DNA of 64,000 bases from Longimicrobiales bacterium. GTDB taxonomy: Bacteria; Gemmatimonadota; Gemmatimonadetes; Longimicrobiales; Gaopeijiaceae. Made by a program: the position numbers and the translations under genes. The stretch lies in the NCBI GenBank assembly GCA_951828585.1, contig OX639991.1:4198001-4262000 (forward strand). The letters are read 5' to 3'. Under the pieces are notes generated by a model. The model worked only from the letters and a program-made list of their open reading frames with translations. It did not search any database and was not told where the DNA came from. This document shows, one piece after another, positions 52,610 to 63,142 of this stretch (positions within the stretch are counted from its first letter, which is position 1; each line of letters starts with the position of its first letter).

Positions 52610-53602
52610 ATGCCGGATTGGCTGAGTCGGGAAGACTTCGCGCTGGCCAGGGGCCGCGTGGCCGGCGTCGTTCACCGTACTCCGCTGCTTCCCTTCCGGA
52701 CCCTCGGCCGATCCAACGGTACGTCCCCCTGGCTGAAATGCGAGAACCTGCAGAAGACTGGCTCCTTCAAGGTGCGGGGCGCGCTCAACGCGATCGCGAC
52801 GCTCAGCCGCCGGGAGCGGGCCCGGGGCGTGATCACGATCTCGGCCGGGAACCACGCGCAGGCAGTGGCGTGGGCGGCTGGGCGGGCGGGTGCGCGCGCC
52901 GCCGTGGTGATGCCCGAGGGGGCCGCGCGGTCCAAGGTCGAGGCGGCCATCGGGTATGGGGCCGAGGTCCAACTGCACGGGGACGCGGCGGAGGCCTTCC
53001 GTGAGGCACGCAGGCGCGCGGGCGAGGAGGGGCTCGTCTTTCTGCACCCCTTTGACGCGGCCCCGGTGATCGCGGGTCATGGCTCGACCGGGCTCGAGGT
53101 AGGCGAGGACATTCCGGGAGAGGCGGTGATCGTGGTGCCGGTGGGGGGCGGTGGCCAGATCGCGGGGATCGCGGGGGCGCTGGCCGCGACCGGAAGGCTG
53201 GCCGGGCGGGGGCGCGTGCGCGTCTTCGGGGTCGAGCCGGAGGGGGCACCCGGCATGCGCAGAAGTCTCGACGAGGGCCGGGCCGCCACCCTCGACGGTG
53301 TCCGCACCATCGCCGACGGGTTGGCGCCACCCATGGCGGGGGAGCTCAACTACCGGTATGTGGCCGAGTTCACCGAGGACGTGGTGCTGGTGAGCGACGG
53401 GGAAATCCTGTCCGCGATGCGATTGCTGCTGACCCGCGCCAAGCTGGTGGCCGAGCCGTCGGGGGCCGCGGCGGTGGCCGCGCTGATGTATGGCCGGGTC
53501 CCCGTTGTGGCGGGCGAGACGGTGGTGGCGCTGGTCTCGGGCGGCAATGTGGACGACGAGATGGTGGTCCGTGCACTGCACGAGGGCGAGCCGTGGCCCT
53601 GA
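52610..53602 (+). CDS. PLP-dependent threonine/serine dehydratase (second copy)
   Basis: The protein has 330 residues from ATG 52610 (AAGGGGAA upstream). Fold-type II PLP motifs: KTGSFKVRGALNAI with the Schiff-base Lys, TISAGNHAQAVAWAAGRAG, VIVVPVGGGGQIAGIAGAL and VVALVSGGNVDD. No ACT domain. It is clearly related to, but diverged from, the gene at 38135-39178. It converts Thr/Ser (or a related hydroxy-amino acid) to a 2-oxo acid. Its 3' end overlaps the start of a broken ABC gene by 10 bases. Confidence 0.92.
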   Translation: MPDWLSREDFALARGRVAGVVHRTPLLPFRTLGRSNGTSPWLKCENLQKTGSFKVRGALNAIATLSRRERARGVITISAGNHAQAVAWAAGRAGARAAVVMPEGAARSKVEAAIGYGAEVQLHGDAAEAFREARRRAGEEGLVFLHPFDAAPVIAGHGSTGLEVGEDIPGEAVIVVPVGGGGQIAGIAGALAATGRLAGRGRVRVFGVEPEGAPGMRRSLDEGRAATLDGVRTIADGLAPPMAGELNYRYVAEFTEDVVLVSDGEILSAMRLLLTRAKLVAEPSGAAAVAALMYGRVPVVAGETVVALVSGGNVDDEMVVRALHEGEPWP

Positions 53603-54441
53603 TCGAGATCGAGGGGGCGGAGAAGCGTTATGGGACTGCGGTCGCCCTGGACGATGTCTCGTTGCGGGTCGGGACCGGGGAGTGCGTGGCCCTGGTGGGG
53701 GAGAGCGGTTCCGGCAAGACCACGCTGCTACGCGCGATCAACCGGCTGACCGCGCTGGACCGGGGACGGGTGGTGGTGCGGGGCGAGCCGGTCGATACCC
53801 TGGATCCGGTGGCGCTGCGCCGCTCGATCGGGTACGTGCAGCAGGACGGCGGTCTGATCGATGTCGCAGCCGTGCGGCGGGCCAACGAGCGAGTCGAGGT
53901 CGAGGGGGCCGCCATCGCGGACACCGCCCGGGAGTTGCTTGGCGTGGTGGGGCTGACCGATCCGTCCCGGGGGCCGCAGGGCGAGGTCGACAACCCTCGC
54001 GGCTCACTGTTGCGCCCGGGCGACGCCTCCATGCTGCTGGCCCTGCCGGTGCACATGTGGGAGAACCGGACGGAGTTGGCGCGGCAGGTCGCCCGCCACC
54101 TGTTGCTGGTGCTCCTGTCGCTGGGGGCGGCGATCTTCGCGGTACTTCCCGCCGGGGTCGCGCTGGAGCGGCGCCGGTCGCTGGCCGAGGGCGCGATCCG
54201 CCTGGCCGGCCTCCTTCAGACCATCCCCGGAATCGCGCTGCTTGCCTTCATGATTCCCGTCTTCGGGATCGGGGTGGCCCCAGCCGTCATGGCCTTGTAC
54301 CTCTACTCCCTGCTGCCGATCCTGCGCAACAGCTACACGGGGATCATCGAGGCCGCGCGAGGGGGGTGGCGGAGGGGAGGCGGTAGGGTGGCCCGCAACG
54401 CCCGCTTCGCTCGAACGGTGTTCCACAGGATCACACTGTAA
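53593..54441 (+). pseudogene. Truncated ABC ATPase-permease fusion (OpuC/OsmV-like)
   Basis: GTG 53593 opens a frame of 282 codons that stays open but lacks essential parts. The ATPase half has Walker A VGESGSGKTTLLRAINRLTA and the Q-loop GYVQQDGGLI. It then runs to ELLGVVGL and jumps past where the LSGGQ signature, Walker B and His switch should be. The second half has permease helices (LLLVLLSLGAAIFAVLPAGV, GLLQTIPGIALLAFMIPVFG, ALYLYSLLPILRNSYTGI) of the glycine-betaine/osmoprotectant family. It stops soon after SYTGI, before the EAA loop is complete. At least two deletions are implied, and the stop codon lies inside 37-bp element E. It is unlikely to make a working transporter. Confidence 0.85.
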
Positions 54442-55601: not shown

Positions 55602-56381
55602 TCGCGACGATTCCGGCCGCCGGCCCCAACGCCAGCACCGGGAAGGCCCACCGCCACCCCACCGCCCCCGCCACCGACGGCACCGCCTGAACCGTCACCG
55701 AGGCCAGCAGAAAACCCACGCACGTCTGCAGCGTCAGCGCGGTCCCCGCCGCCCCCTCGGGCGCCACCTCGGTAACGAGCGCACTGAACTGGGCCGAGTC
55801 CGCCACGACGAAGAAGCCCCACACCAGCGTCACCGCCGCCACCAGCGCGAAGGCCGTCCCGAAGAGCGGCGCGATCGCCACACAGCACAGCCCGCTCACC
55901 GCCATCGCCCGCACGACCACCCGCTCCCGCCCGATCCGGTCCGCCGCCCATCCCCCCCACACGCACCCCACGCCCCCGGCCGCCAGCGCCCCGAAGCTGG
56001 CCAGCTCCACGAAGGCATGGCCGTGCCCCGCCGCCTCGCTCGAAGCCGCCAGGAATGCCGGCACCCACGCCCACATGGCGTACAGCTCCCACATATGGCC
56101 CAGGTAGCCCGCGGTGGCCAGGCGCGTCTCGCGGTGACGCACCACCCGGGCGGCGAGTCCCCACGAGAAGCGTCCCCGGGTGAAGGGGAAGGGACCGTCA
56201 CGATAGAAGACCGCCACGAGCGCCGCCCCCAGCACCGCACCGCCGGAAGCTCCCAGCAGAGCGACATGCCCAGGAGTTCGGCAACCACCAGCAGGGCGAG
56301 GATGCGCCAGCGGCGGGGATCGGCGTCCGGCTGCGGCGAAGACGCGGCGTGGTTCGTCGCTTCGCCGGCCTCCCTCCTCAC
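55564..56381 (-). pseudogene. Internally deleted MFS transporter
   Basis: From GTG 56381 (GTGA overlap with the preceding stop) the frame begins WRILALLVVAELLGMSLC, the expected first helix of an MFS protein, then loses sense near 56262. In the next frame the C-terminal half resumes: GASGGAVLGAALVAVFYRDG, ETRLATAGYLGHMWELYAMW, DRIGRERVVVRAMAVSGLCC and further helices to the stop at 55564. About five helices (TM2-6) and the frame register are missing. It is a clear remnant rather than a short transporter. It formerly followed the sigma-like gene in an operon. Confidence 0.83.
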
Positions 56382-57874
56382 ACCTCCGGCTTCTCGGCCA
56401 ACAGCCCCGAGCCGTCGACGAGCAGCCGCAGCCCATCCGGCCGGAGCAGCACCAAGGCCTCTTCGCCCGGCTGCAGGCCGCACTCCAGAAGCGCTTCGCG
56501 CAACCGGCCCATCTCGGGCCCGTTCGGGTCGTAGGACCGCCAGATCACCGAGGCGTCGTCCACCCCGCGAGGGTGCTCGAAGGGGATCTTCACGGACCCG
56601 TCGAGCCCAACGCCGAGGTGCTGGGCCACCGCCACCGACACCTTCTGGCTGTTGCCTTTGAGGTGATGCAAACCGACCCGGAAGCGGAGCACCGGCGTAC
56701 CGTCCGCCGACCACGCGACGTCGCGGGCCCGGCCAAGATCCCGCACCGGAGCGACGGGCGCGGCCACGATCCGCACCACGTCGCCGTCGACCTCGAACTT
56801 CCGCGTACTCAGGTAGTTGCGGACCGTCGCGGGGAGGACCTCGAATCGAGCCGGGATATCCTCGAGCAGCGAGGTGACGCTCGTCTCGCCACCAGCCTCT
56901 TCGATTCGCTTGACGATCGCATCGACTACGCCCTCGTAGGGGTCGTCGGTCCAGTCGCTCAAGCCCCACTTGTCCTTGGTGAACCGGACGAAGAGCGGGT
57001 CGGAGGAGAGAAGGCTGGACAGCGACGAGTTGTCGTTGAGCCCGGCGACATCCGCGATCATTTCTCGCGTGGAAGCCTCGCCGATCTCGCGCAGGGCCAG
57101 GTACACGCGGGCGCGGCGCGTGCCGCGCAGGACGAGGCTGCCGCGGATCCGTACCAGCCGTGCGTTGCGCGCGAGAGCGTCCCACTCCGGAATCCCCACC
57201 GCCCCGATCCTCGCCCGCAGGGAATCCTCGTCGATCACCCCCGCATCGTTCGCAAACCCGGGGGCAACGCTCCGGGCCCGCTCGATCAACACCCTGAACA
57301 CCTCGTTGCCGACCACGTTGTCCAGGTACTCGTAGCCGCCCGCGTTCATGATCGCGACTTCGACCGCGGTCCTCCACCGGGACGGAGCGTCGCCCACCAG
57401 CAAGCCCAGAATCTTCTCGAACTTCTCGGGCCTGGCAGCCACGCCCACCGCCTTCTCCAGCCAGGCAGCCGCCCTCTCGATGGTTTGCGACGCGGCCCGC
57501 TCCACCTCCCAGCGGAGCCTGACTTCCAACTGGCGCACGCGCTCACGGCTGACCCCGAACTCCTTGCCCAGCACCGCCAGCTTTTCCGGTACGCGTGCAT
57601 ATGTACGCCGTCGCGCAATGGTGCGACGCCGTTCGTCCATGCCCTCCAGCACGCTCGCAAACTCCCGCCCGATCTGGATATCGGCCCGGAGTGCGTCGGC
57701 CGCGGCAATCAACTCGACGTTGCCGGCCGTGTCACCGAGTCCGCTCTGCTCGAGAAGAGTTGCGATGTCGATTTCCGCGAGATCCGCAAGGGTCTCCGCA
57801 CCGTGGAACAGCACGGCGCAGCCGAGCAGACGCTCCATCGCGTCGTGGTAGTCGCGGTCGGGTGTTGGGCTCAT
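56378..57874 (-). CDS. Sigma-region-4-like and HARE-HTH-like DNA-binding protein
   Basis: The protein has 498 residues from ATG 57874. A sigma-70 region 4-type HTH occurs near residues 90-115 (EKLAVLGKEFGVSRERVRQL). Around residue 255-310 a winged-helix segment resembles HARE-HTH (REMIADVAGLNDNSSLSSLL, then FVRFTKDKWGLSDW). A second similar unit follows (VVDAIVKRIEEAGGETSVTS, LPATVRNYLSTRKF). No region 2 is present, so it is not a complete sigma factor. It could be a chromatin or promoter-binding regulator; the target is unknown. A good promoter lies just upstream, and the deleted MFS gene is coupled to its stop. Confidence 0.8.
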   Translation of the reverse strand: MSPTPDRDYHDAMERLLGCAVLFHGAETLADLAEIDIATLLEQSGLGDTAGNVELIAAADALRADIQIGREFASVLEGMDERRRTIARRRTYARVPEKLAVLGKEFGVSRERVRQLEVRLRWEVERAASQTIERAAAWLEKAVGVAARPEKFEKILGLLVGDAPSRWRTAVEVAIMNAGGYEYLDNVVGNEVFRVLIERARSVAPGFANDAGVIDEDSLRARIGAVGIPEWDALARNARLVRIRGSLVLRGTRRARVYLALREIGEASTREMIADVAGLNDNSSLSSLLSSDPLFVRFTKDKWGLSDWTDDPYEGVVDAIVKRIEEAGGETSVTSLLEDIPARFEVLPATVRNYLSTRKFEVDGDVVRIVAAPVAPVRDLGRARDVAWSADGTPVLRFRVGLHHLKGNSQKVSVAVAQHLGVGLDGSVKIPFEHPRGVDDASVIWRSYDPNGPEMGRLREALLECGLQPGEEALVLLRPDGLRLLVDGSGLLAEKPEV

Positions 57875-57907
57875 CGGGAATCGACGCAGGGTGAAGAGAA
57901 GACTTCT

Positions 57908-57937
57908 AACATACCAGAGAATAGGCCATCTCGTCAA
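57908..57937 (-). promoter_or_regulatory. Sigma-70-type promoter of the sigma-like gene
   Basis: On the minus strand TTGACG (57937-57932) and TATGTT (57913-57908) are 18 bp apart, matching the consensus at 5/6 and 4/6. The expected start point is near 57901, giving a leader of about 27 bases and no strong ribosome-binding site before ATG 57874. Confidence 0.5.
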
Positions 57938-57973
57938 CTAGCAGTCTGCCAAGGCTGCGCTTATGCTTCAGAC

Positions 57974-59134
57974 ATGAGCCAGCGCACGGCCGTCCGCACC
58001 CACACCTTCACCGAGTCGGTCATCCGCGAGATGACACGCGTGGCACGGCGCCACGGCGCGATCAACCTCGCACAGGGCTTCCCCGACTTCCCCGCCCCCC
58101 GGCTCCTGAAAGACGCCGCCTGCCGCGCCATACAGGACGACGTGAACCAGTACGCGATCACCTGGGGTACGCCAGGCCTGCGCGCCGCGCTGGCGGCGAA
58201 GTACGCCGAGTGGTACGGGCTCGAGGTGGACGCGGAGAGTGAAATCACCGTCACCTGCGGTGCCACCGAGGCCATGGCTGCCGTCATGCTCGCGGCCATC
58301 GACCCGGGCGAGGAGGTGGTCATCCTCGAACCCTTCTACGAGAACTACGGCCCCGACGTGATCCTCTGCGACGCGGCTCCGGTCTTCGTATCCCTGTCTC
58401 CGCCCGATTTCCGCCTCGATCCGGACCGCCTCGCGAGTGTGGTCACCAATCGGACCCGCGCCCTCGTCATCAACACGCCCAACAACCCTGCGGGACGTGT
58501 CTTCAATCGTGACGAACTGGGCGCGGTCGCCCGGATCTGCACCGAGCACGATATCCTCGCGATCACGGACGAGATCTACGAGCACATCATCTTCGACGGC
58601 GAGCACATTCCCCTGGCCACCCTCCCCGGCATGCGCGACCGGACGGTCATCATCTCCGGCGCGTCCAAGACCTTCAGCGTCACCGGCTGGCGAATCGGGA
58701 CGATCGTGGCGCCCGCCGCGCTGAATTCCGCGATCCGCAAGGTTCACGATTTTCTCACCGTCGGCGCACCCGCCCCGCTCCAGGACGCCTGCGCGGCCGG
58801 CTTCGATTCGCTCGGCGGCGACTACTACGAGACTCTGGCGCGCGATTACCGGCAGCGGCGCGACATCCTCTACCGGGGACTGCGTGACGCCGGCTTCCGA
58901 TGCCGCCCCCCCGAAGGCGCCTACTACATGATGGCGGACTTCTCGGCGCTGAGCGCCCTCGACGACACCGCGTTCAGCACCTTCCTCGCGCGCGAATGCG
59001 GCGTCGCTCCGGTGCCGGGATCCTCCTTCTACCACCGGCCCGGGGACGGGCGCAACCTCGTGCGCTTCGCCTTCTGCAAGCAGGCGGCGACCCTGGAGCG
59101 CGCGGTTTCGCGGCTGCGCCGCTTCTTCGCGTGA
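57974..59134 (+). CDS. Class I/II PLP aminotransferase
   Basis: The protein has 386 residues from ATG 57974. Fold-type I motifs: AINLAQGFPDFPAPRLLKDA, QYAITWGTPGLRAALAAKYA, VTCGATEAMAAVMLA, VINTPNNPAGRVF, AITDEIYEHIIFDG and SGASKTFSVTGWRIGTIVAP with the PLP Lys in SASKTF-type context. It resembles methionine/kynurenine-type aminotransferases (YbdL/KAT group). It transfers amino groups to 2-oxo acids. Coupled by GTGA overlap to the SRPBCC gene downstream and divergent from the sigma-like gene. Confidence 0.94.
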   Translation: MSQRTAVRTHTFTESVIREMTRVARRHGAINLAQGFPDFPAPRLLKDAACRAIQDDVNQYAITWGTPGLRAALAAKYAEWYGLEVDAESEITVTCGATEAMAAVMLAAIDPGEEVVILEPFYENYGPDVILCDAAPVFVSLSPPDFRLDPDRLASVVTNRTRALVINTPNNPAGRVFNRDELGAVARICTEHDILAITDEIYEHIIFDGEHIPLATLPGMRDRTVIISGASKTFSVTGWRIGTIVAPAALNSAIRKVHDFLTVGAPAPLQDACAAGFDSLGGDYYETLARDYRQRRDILYRGLRDAGFRCRPPEGAYYMMADFSALSALDDTAFSTFLARECGVAPVPGSSFYHRPGDGRNLVRFAFCKQAATLERAVSRLRRFFA

Positions 59135-61411: not shown

Positions 61412-63142
61412 TGTCAAACCGGAATAGAAATGTCCGGGGGTAGAGCGAAATAGAAATGTCCCCCCCTGGGTGGGTGTTTGCCACCCCCGGCCAGCCTGAG
61501 CGGGTTGGGGGTGGGGTGGGTAGTGGGACCCCCCGATCGGAGGGACGGGCATGCCCGGCCCGGAGATCGGGGGGTTGCCGGCGGTCGCGTTGGTCTGGGT
61601 CACACCCTGCCTTGCCCGGACGGTGTGGGTCCACGAGGCGGTGATCATACCGATCCCGCATCCGATTTCCGGCGAGGTCCCCGGCCATCAGCGCCGCTCG
61701 CGAGTCCGGCATCCGGCAGATCGGCAGGCCGTCCGTTGCGCGCAGCCTCTTGTTCCGCGAGGCGCTTGTCCCGCCGTGCCATGGCCATCCGGGCACCCCC
61801 GTGGATTTGCTTTCGCCATGGATGGTCCGGTGGGGGCTTCGGCGGCTTGGACCCCGGCTTGCGGGGCTTCGCGGGCTGAGTCTTCGTCGGTGTTGCCGGG
61901 GGACGGGCCCGACCCAGGGACTCGACGGCCAGGTAGCGTTGGCCGATCCGGAAGTGGATGTCCCCGCAAAGTCGGCGCTCAACGACGACCTCGTCACCGG
62001 GCCGAACACCTCGGGCCTCCCGCTCCGGGATCTGCCAGTACCGGTTCTTGAAGCGGATGATGAAGTCACGGGCCACCTTCCGGGTCTCCGTCTCGGCAAA
62101 CAGGGCCTCCAGATCTATGCCGGGCGGCAAGGGCCGGTGCGCGTCGAGGGCACTCTGGGGCGCGACCACGAAGCGCTCGTTCCAGAACGGAACCCAGGAA
62201 TCGGCCAGGAAGCGGTTCGCTGCGTCAAGGGTGGAGATCCCTGCCACCCGCATTTCCTTGATCAGGCGGTCCTGCGCCGTACCGAAGGTCCGCTCGACTC
62301 GTCCCTTCGCCTGGGGAGAGCCCGCCAGGATCACCTCGACCCCCAACTCGCCCAGCGCCCGGGAGATGATCGTATCGGTCCGCTCCTCCTTCTTCGCCAG
62401 CCACTGCCCGAAGTGTCCGGCGTGGTCCGTGTAGACAGCCAGGGGGCGGCCGTGGCGCTGCAGGTATCCGATGATCGCCCGGCGGTTCTCCGCACCGTCG
62501 TCGCGCTCGACGAAGCGGGCCATCATCAGCCGGCTCGTCGCATCGTCATGGATCGAGATCAGCACCTGGTCGCCCGCAGCCCGGTCCTCCAGCCACGCAT
62601 GCACCGAGCTGTCCCACTGTTCCAGCTCGCCCAACGCCGCCCGCCGCGGACGCCGGCTGCGGTGCTTGGCCCGCCTGCGCTGCCGCTTCCACAGGCCGGC
62701 CTCCATCATCCAGCCCCGCAGCGTGTCCGGGCTCACCCGCAGCGCGAAGCTTCTCTCCAGGTGCTCCGCAAGCAGCGTAGGCCCGAAGTCTCGGTACAGC
62801 GGTTCCCTCGCGACTTCCAGCGCCCGCTCTCGAAACCCCCGCGGCAACGCCCTGTTCGACCGCCGCCCGCGCAGTCCGTGCACTACGGCCGCATCGCCCT
62901 CAGCCTCGAACTTCCGGCGCAACCTGCGAAAATGCCGTCGCGTCACCCCGATCCGCGCCGCTCCCGCAGCCGCGCTAAGCACTCCCTCCTTCACCTGTCT
63001 CAACACCGAGATGCGATCCCTCTCCTTCAGACTCAAGTCCATTTGCTCCTCTCCCGGATCCGGTTCCGTCGTTGACCGAACATGATCCGAAAGAGGACAT
63101 TTCTACTTCGCTAAGGGAGGACATTTCTAAATCGGCGCGACA
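61412..63142 (-). mobile_element. IS1202-like (ISNCY) insertion sequence, exact ends
   Basis: The element is 1731 bp. Its left end TGTCAAACCGGAATAGAAAT and right end (complement) TGTCGCGCCGATTTAGAAAT form imperfect 24-bp inverted repeats starting TGTC and ending GACA. Each end carries a second internal copy of TAGAAATGTCC (61453-61463 and complement near 63093-63103), probably transposase-binding sites. Perfect 18-bp direct repeats flank it (61394-61411, 63143-63160). Long target duplications are a habit of the IS1202 group. The perfect repeats suggest a fairly recent insertion. Confidence 0.9.
61645..63042 (-). CDS. ISNCY/IS1202-family transposase
   Basis: The protein has 465 residues from ATG 63042, with GGAGAGGAG just before it. 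Two N-terminal HTH motifs (KEGVLSAAAGAARIGVTRRH; FALRVSPDTLRGWMMEAGLW) precede a basic segment and the DDE core. Catalytic residues are in place: LEQWDSSVHAWLE, LAVYTDHAGHFG and SPQAKGRVERTFGTAQDRLI. The tail after residue ~360 is basic and Pro-rich. Compared with the IS630 transposase of this window, no key residue is missing, so it is probably active. Confidence 0.94.
   Translation of the reverse strand: MDLSLKERDRISVLRQVKEGVLSAAAGAARIGVTRRHFRRLRRKFEAEGDAAVVHGLRGRRSNRALPRGFRERALEVAREPLYRDFGPTLLAEHLERSFALRVSPDTLRGWMMEAGLWKRQRRRAKHRSRRPRRAALGELEQWDSSVHAWLEDRAAGDQVLISIHDDATSRLMMARFVERDDGAENRRAIIGYLQRHGRPLAVYTDHAGHFGQWLAKKEERTDTIISRALGELGVEVILAGSPQAKGRVERTFGTAQDRLIKEMRVAGISTLDAANRFLADSWVPFWNERFVVAPQSALDAHRPLPPGIDLEALFAETETRKVARDFIIRFKNRYWQIPEREARGVRPGDEVVVERRLCGDIHFRIGQRYLAVESLGRARPPATPTKTQPAKPRKPGSKPPKPPPDHPWRKQIHGGARMAMARRDKRLAEQEAARNGRPADLPDAGLASGADGRGPRRKSDAGSV

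Follow-up and report, generated by a model that had tools for sequence, protein, structure and literature searches.

What does a protein do that carries a sigma region 4-type helix ahead of a run of winged helices? This question is raised by P0001, encoded in a 64,000-nucleotide window (positions 4,198,001 to 4,262,000 of contig OX639991.1, assembly GCA_951828585.1) of a Longimicrobiales bacterium whose genome is a single 4.47-Mb contig. Sequence searches for relatives returned Gemmatimonadota MAGs, several of them named Longimicrobiales, and the bacterium is presumably sponge-associated, as MAGs of such kind usually come from sponges. A first-pass annotation had described the open reading frame as a non-sigma protein in which a region 4-type helix is followed by two HARE-type winged helices, with a good promoter of its own. 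The frame is real (Table 1), and the gene is under purifying selection; because dN/dS is 0.10-0.23 (nine close pairs) and synteny is conserved, we regard it as conserved beyond chance. The start codon at 57874 is matched by an ATG in most orthologues, and TTG apparently takes that role in L009-L011, L014 and L015. Our best explanation, to which we give about an even chance, sees P0001 as a DNA-binding transcription regulator that stands alone on the chromosome, probably domesticated from a defence-associated family, and not as a sigma factor.

Table 1. Features of the P0001 locus, in window coordinates
Feature	Coordinates	Strand	Residues	Basis or remark
CDS of P0001, sigma4/tandem winged-helix protein	56378..57874	-	498 aa	ATG start, stop included
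Sigma region 4-like HTH	57494..57682	-	~65-127	Pfam, NCBIfam and PDB profiles; VIA structure match
Recognition helix VSRERVRQLEV	57521..57553	-	108-118	most conserved stretch, mean pairwise identity 0.96
Predicted winged helix a	57305..57490	-	129-190	AlphaFold2, block pLDDT about 77-94
Predicted winged helix b	57125..57304	-	191-250	AlphaFold2, block pLDDT about 87-93
HARE-like winged helix	56948..57118	-	~253-309	hhalign with 7 HARE domains, controls passed
Winged helix d (generic, non-HARE)	56762..56944	-	311-371	AlphaFold2 and VIA
Conserved C-terminal domain	56435..56719	-	386-480	conservation; CDC48-N-like double-psi barrel possible, tentative
Sigma70-type promoter TTGACG-N18-TATGTT	57937-57908	-		upstream of P0001 gene
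Class I/II aminotransferase gene, divergent, candidate target	57974..59134	+		Pfam Aminotran_1_2, E 1.2e-60

The region 4 assignment was confirmed, with the helix GVSRERVRQLE at residues 107-117. Pfam Sigma70_r4 scores 20.9 bits in P0001, below its cut-off of 24.1, the only other Pfam match being a chance-level one to a terminase, and it exceeds the cut-off in 7 of 10 family members scanned. NCBIfam RpoH matches with E 2.2e-7, over residues 67-119 only, and SigB/SigA region 4 in the PDB with E 2e-5 at best. The recognition helix nearly equals that of the genome's own sigma factors, three proteins matching the RpoD model (GVTRERVRQIK, GVTRERIRQLR and GVTRERIRQIR), and where these have the hydrophobic run LRLYFGL in region 4.1, P0001 has ARRRTYA. 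Nearly all PDB and all NCBIfam sigma matches fall within region 4 (residues ~41-129), no Pfam or NCBIfam match to sigma region 2 or 3 was found outside that span, and only 64 residues lie ahead of region 4. Since Pfam, NCBIfam and the PDB give no region 2, we rejected identity as a sigma factor. The weak matches to sigma family models through region 4 might be read as the trace of a degenerate or unorthodox sigma factor still able to start transcription, but the absence of regions 2 and 3, the short leader and the confinement of the matches make this very improbable. A region 4-like segment also occurs in a defence protein, MzaA (NF041931) of the MZA anti-phage system, whose match to P0001 (E 0.087) is confined to residues 67-118, the remainder being unrelated at the sensitivity of the search.

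Beyond region 4, the AlphaFold2 model (11 sequences; pLDDT 71.6, moderate; pTM 0.53) predicts four tandem winged helices and then the conserved C-terminal domain. The first-pass annotation had included neither the winged helices at residues 129-250 nor the C-terminal domain, nor the family context. A PDB fold search with the whole model returned nothing with E under 0.001, and VIA matched residues 309-371 to many winged helices (up to Z 8.4, rmsd 2.2, 59 aligned).

One of the two HARE units claimed earlier held up. The unit at residues ~253-309, which contains FVRFTKDKWGLSDW and whose wing is poorly modelled by AlphaFold2, aligned in hhalign as a family profile with a HARE reference set (P 1.3e-4, score 30.5). 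This set consists of seven domains from six of the seven HARE-positive genomes among 149 searched, the match in G003 being omitted for its unclear reading frame. Controls scored lower: at most 20.3 among 200 column shuffles, 15.7 for the reversed profile, 13.8 for the other winged helix and 12.1 for the C-terminal domain; with orthologues alone the match was weaker (P 0.0012). Pfam HARE-HTH (PF05066) matches 4 of 9 family members (best E 7.3e-4), and matches neither P0001 nor anything else in its genome. Of the two domains proposed for a profile search, sigma4 was thus matched directly, and the HARE-like character appears by profile-profile comparison only. The second claimed unit, residues 311-371, did not match the HARE profile and was rejected as such. 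The notion of a non-sigma protein that mixes sigma4 and HARE is therefore sound as a domain description, with one HARE-like unit and not two.

These modules might act on RNA polymerase itself more than on DNA: sigma4 would dock on the beta flap and the HARE-like unit on the core, as delta does, and P0001 would compete with or displace sigma region 4. Sigma4, alpha-CTD and HARE are all modules of the polymerase or its subunits, and VIA matched model residues 67-177 to SigmaA region 4/beta-flap chimeras (Z 7.0, rmsd 3.4, 85 aligned), although VIA Z values of that size are commonplace. However, the DNA-reading helix is the most conserved stretch of the protein, ARRRTYA in place of LRLYFGL may remove the flap contact, and four winged helices suggest DNA, so we consider action on the polymerase unlikely. 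The delta subunit (RpoE) has one N-terminal HARE-HTH and an acidic disordered tail. Delta resembles P0001 in having a HARE-like unit in a transcription context, but it lacks sigma4 and the winged-helix array; in P0001 the HARE-like unit lies within the chain and a conserved domain forms the C-terminus, which is not the delta-type layout.

That C-terminal domain is common to all family members, and its core (residues 401-461) has a mean identity of 0.83. AlphaFold2 modelled it poorly, with low confidence. Its best profile match among solved structures is a CDC48 N-domain chain (E 0.011), MazE-like matches being weak, and we tentatively suggest that it is possibly a CDC48-N-like double-psi barrel. 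A B3/EcoRII-N-like reading found no support in profile searches.

P0001 matches were present in 23 of 23 genus genomes searched. Across all genomes the full query tallied 292 of 298, mostly through the sigma4 part, as ordinary sigma factors would match, and we therefore relied on a sigma4-free alignment (A4). This query matched 27 of 121 family-level genomes, namely 22 of the 23 genus genomes plus G196, G114, G122 (two copies), G128 and G338; G013 is missing because it holds just an N-terminal piece at a contig end. G196 and G114, from two further genera, carry orthologues, which overturned an initial genus-only distribution (0 of 36 genomes outside the genus). The copies in G122, G128 and G338 are of an operon-borne type and not orthologues. 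A phage origin was rejected: no phage match turned up, the single match on viral contigs covers the sigma4 segment only, and three further viral scans gave no relative. PADLOC did not recognise P0001.

A tblastn search of plasmids found actinobacterial relatives, some annotated in RefSeq as 'sigma factor-like helix-turn-helix DNA-binding protein', and P0001 is homologous to this family over sigma4, winged helices and C-terminal domain. The earlier remark that such a protein is not a standard annotation was thus half right. WP_197491897.1, on plasmid 2 of Microbacterium chocolatum, is homologous to P0001 over most of its length and shares sigma4, the C-terminal domain and two winged helices, one of them HARE-like; unlike P0001, it is plasmid-borne and has an N-terminal alpha-CTD-like segment (19.7 bits, cut-off 23.8). 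Mycobacterial members, in contrast to P0001, have lost the RERxRQ helix (absent in ten rows); on two mycobacterial plasmids (L092, L098) nearly identical family genes lie near ParA/ParB and DUF2637 genes, in what looks like plasmid backbone. The alpha-CTD scores 22.5 bits in L026 (cut-off 23.8), 19.7 bits in L040 and 25.8 bits, above the cut-off, in L042; in L024, L025, L133 and L134 the corresponding region is seen by alignment or by eye, with no Pfam match. Pfam found no alpha-CTD (PF03118) in P0001. It is also absent from the operon-borne L130 and L131, so its loss is not a mark of domestication.

In Gemmatimonadota, the family is linked with phosphorothioate defence. Seven of the eight non-orthologue loci lie in Ssp/Pbe operons, with gene functions taken from PMC6459918 and PMC10853773. 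SspC and SspD are present at all seven (L045 in G022, L046 in G018, L047 in G021, L130 and L131 in G122, L132 in G128, L133 in G338), SspA at five, SspB at four, and PbeA with PbeC at six (all but L132), in stretches several of which end at contig ends or at the limits of the fetched region. At L045 and L130 the family gene sits between sspD and pbeA, overlapping them or within about 25 bp, at L133 it ends within 5 bp of pbeA, and at L131 it is on the opposite strand. The L133 operon (L133:1384-15269) is complete, running SspA-B-C-D, sigma-like protein, PbeA and PbeC with a 165-aa ORF at its end, and mixes Ssp modification with a Pbe restriction module. The eighth locus, L134 (G096), belongs to the sister clade of the orthologues and has no Ssp/Pbe genes nearby. 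Among 13 actinobacterial loci, PbeA and PbeC were found only at Arthrobacter L042, directly downstream of the family gene; there, on a plasmid of Arthrobacter sp. StoSoilB13 (L042:7302-12895), an alpha-CTD/sigma4 family gene is followed by PbeA- and PbeC-like sequences. Four Ssp plasmid loci from outside Gemmatimonadota (out of 90 records with an SspD match) had no annotated sigma-like HTH neighbour, so that a link between family and Ssp loci beyond this phylum found no support.

The proteins of the SspABCD-PbeA-PbeC operons (L024, L025, L133, L130) have the sigma4, winged helices and C-terminal domain of P0001 and fall in its sister clade. They differ from it in their place between sspD and pbeA, a usual N-terminal alpha-CTD-like region and a patchy spread. 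In a quick tree of 45 rows, the orthologues formed one clade (SH-aLRT 100) with the operon-type clade as sister (98), and the operon-borne L026 and L131 grouped with actinobacterial rows on long branches; a 33-row tree with L026, L131 and L132 removed and fewer orthologues gave bootstrap/SH-aLRT values of 100/100 and 100/99. Because of this tree and the genomic context, we infer domestication: the window clade would be a branch without the alpha-CTD and the defence neighbours it once had, now passed on vertically as a core gene. Whether the change ran from defence to solitary hinges on how the tree is rooted, and Ssp/Pbe genes are also missing from most of the actinobacterial relatives.

P0001 might instead have kept a role in defence, acting alone to sense or silence invader DNA that its sigma4/HARE/winged-helix array recognises as promoter-like or modified, in genomes without an Ssp-Pbe operon. 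Its closest relatives do sit in phosphorothioate operons, as the earlier tie between HARE and restriction systems would have it, and HARE domains have been proposed to discriminate modified DNA (PMC10853773). The window copy has no such neighbours, however: SspA-D, PbeA and PbeC were found neither in the window nor in 18 orthologue loci scanned, and SspD is absent from the genome. Moreover, every genus genome has P0001, in a conserved gene order next to metabolic genes, as opposed to the patchy SspD (7 of 23 genus genomes), and Pfam found no nuclease domain in it. A present role in defence therefore seems unlikely to us.

A bolder idea, which we hold as an outside chance of similar size, concerns the whole family. 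It may be a promoter mimic, a single chain with alpha-CTD for the UP element, sigma4 for the -35 and a delta-like HARE module. In the service of Ssp-Pbe defence it would read the promoters of invading DNA, and either mark transcribing foreign DNA for PbeA/PbeC or shut those promoters down; the window clade would then be an exapted copy with a housekeeping task, the regulation of a metabolic gene divergent from it. If true, recognising promoters would be tied to telling self from non-self, and in the solitary branch a defence part would have become a regulator. The domain family is already known from annotation and partly from Aravind and Iyer 2012, who are said to have noted HARE in bacterial proteins that mix traits of sigma factors with those of the RNAP alpha subunit. 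Neither the family protein in Ssp/Pbe operons nor the solitary clade was described in the titles and beginnings of abstracts searched, subscription papers lying mostly outside that scope, and passages of PMC10853773 and PMC12839542 do not describe the protein in such operons. The little-described 'sigma factor-like HTH' annotation thereby gains a context: in Gemmatimonadota the family is recurrently linked to phosphorothioate-defence operons, PbeA/PbeC also adjoin a member from Arthrobacter, and one branch consists of solitary core genes.

If P0001 is the solitary regulator that we favour, then TTGAC-type -35 elements would be read by its sigma region 4 HTH, whose recognition helix resembles that of the housekeeping sigmas. 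The winged helices, four in tandem and one of them HARE-like, would hold the DNA next to it, and the C-terminal domain would respond to a signal or to a binding partner. P0001 would be a regulator of transcription with a promoter-reading part borrowed from sigma. It would most likely act at the 99-bp intergenic region (57875-57973) shared with the divergent aminotransferase gene, including P0001's own TTGACG promoter, and the outcome would be autoregulation or control of the aminotransferase. Such a regulatory role is plausible. In 23 of 24 other orthologue genomes the aminotransferase gene likewise lies divergently beside the P0001 gene, 15-219 bp away; in the exception, G011, the P0001 gene is present with no aminotransferase beside it.

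The promoter claimed earlier was borne out: a like site precedes 19 of 23 orthologues, as against 3.7% of mononucleotide-shuffled sequences, and the other 4 have no clear promoter. As a -35 element of the ordinary sigma70 kind, TTGACG could be conserved without any binding by P0001. The exact pattern AGTTGACG-N15..19-TATGTTA occurs once in the genome, and no regulon can therefore be read from it. On the aminotransferase side, a TATGCT hexamer ends six bases ahead of the ATG (57962-57974, +), which suggests that this transcript may be leaderless.

Three other genes in the window deserve mention. The MFS transporter gene downstream of P0001 (55564-56436, -) is broken in this genome: compared with a 424-codon open frame in L029, it lacks residues about 61-174, and what is left falls into two parts that do not share a frame. 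The relative L029, at least, has the gene intact. At 53593-54441 (+), abutting a dehydratase gene, an open frame reads like the N-terminus of an ABC transporter ATPase running into a piece of permease; relatives, L030 and L031 among them, have about 1.5 kb separating the two matches, so this transporter also looks shortened here. Near the window end, a 465-aa ORF (61645-63042, -) resembles, as judged by eye, a transposase with an integrase-like core.
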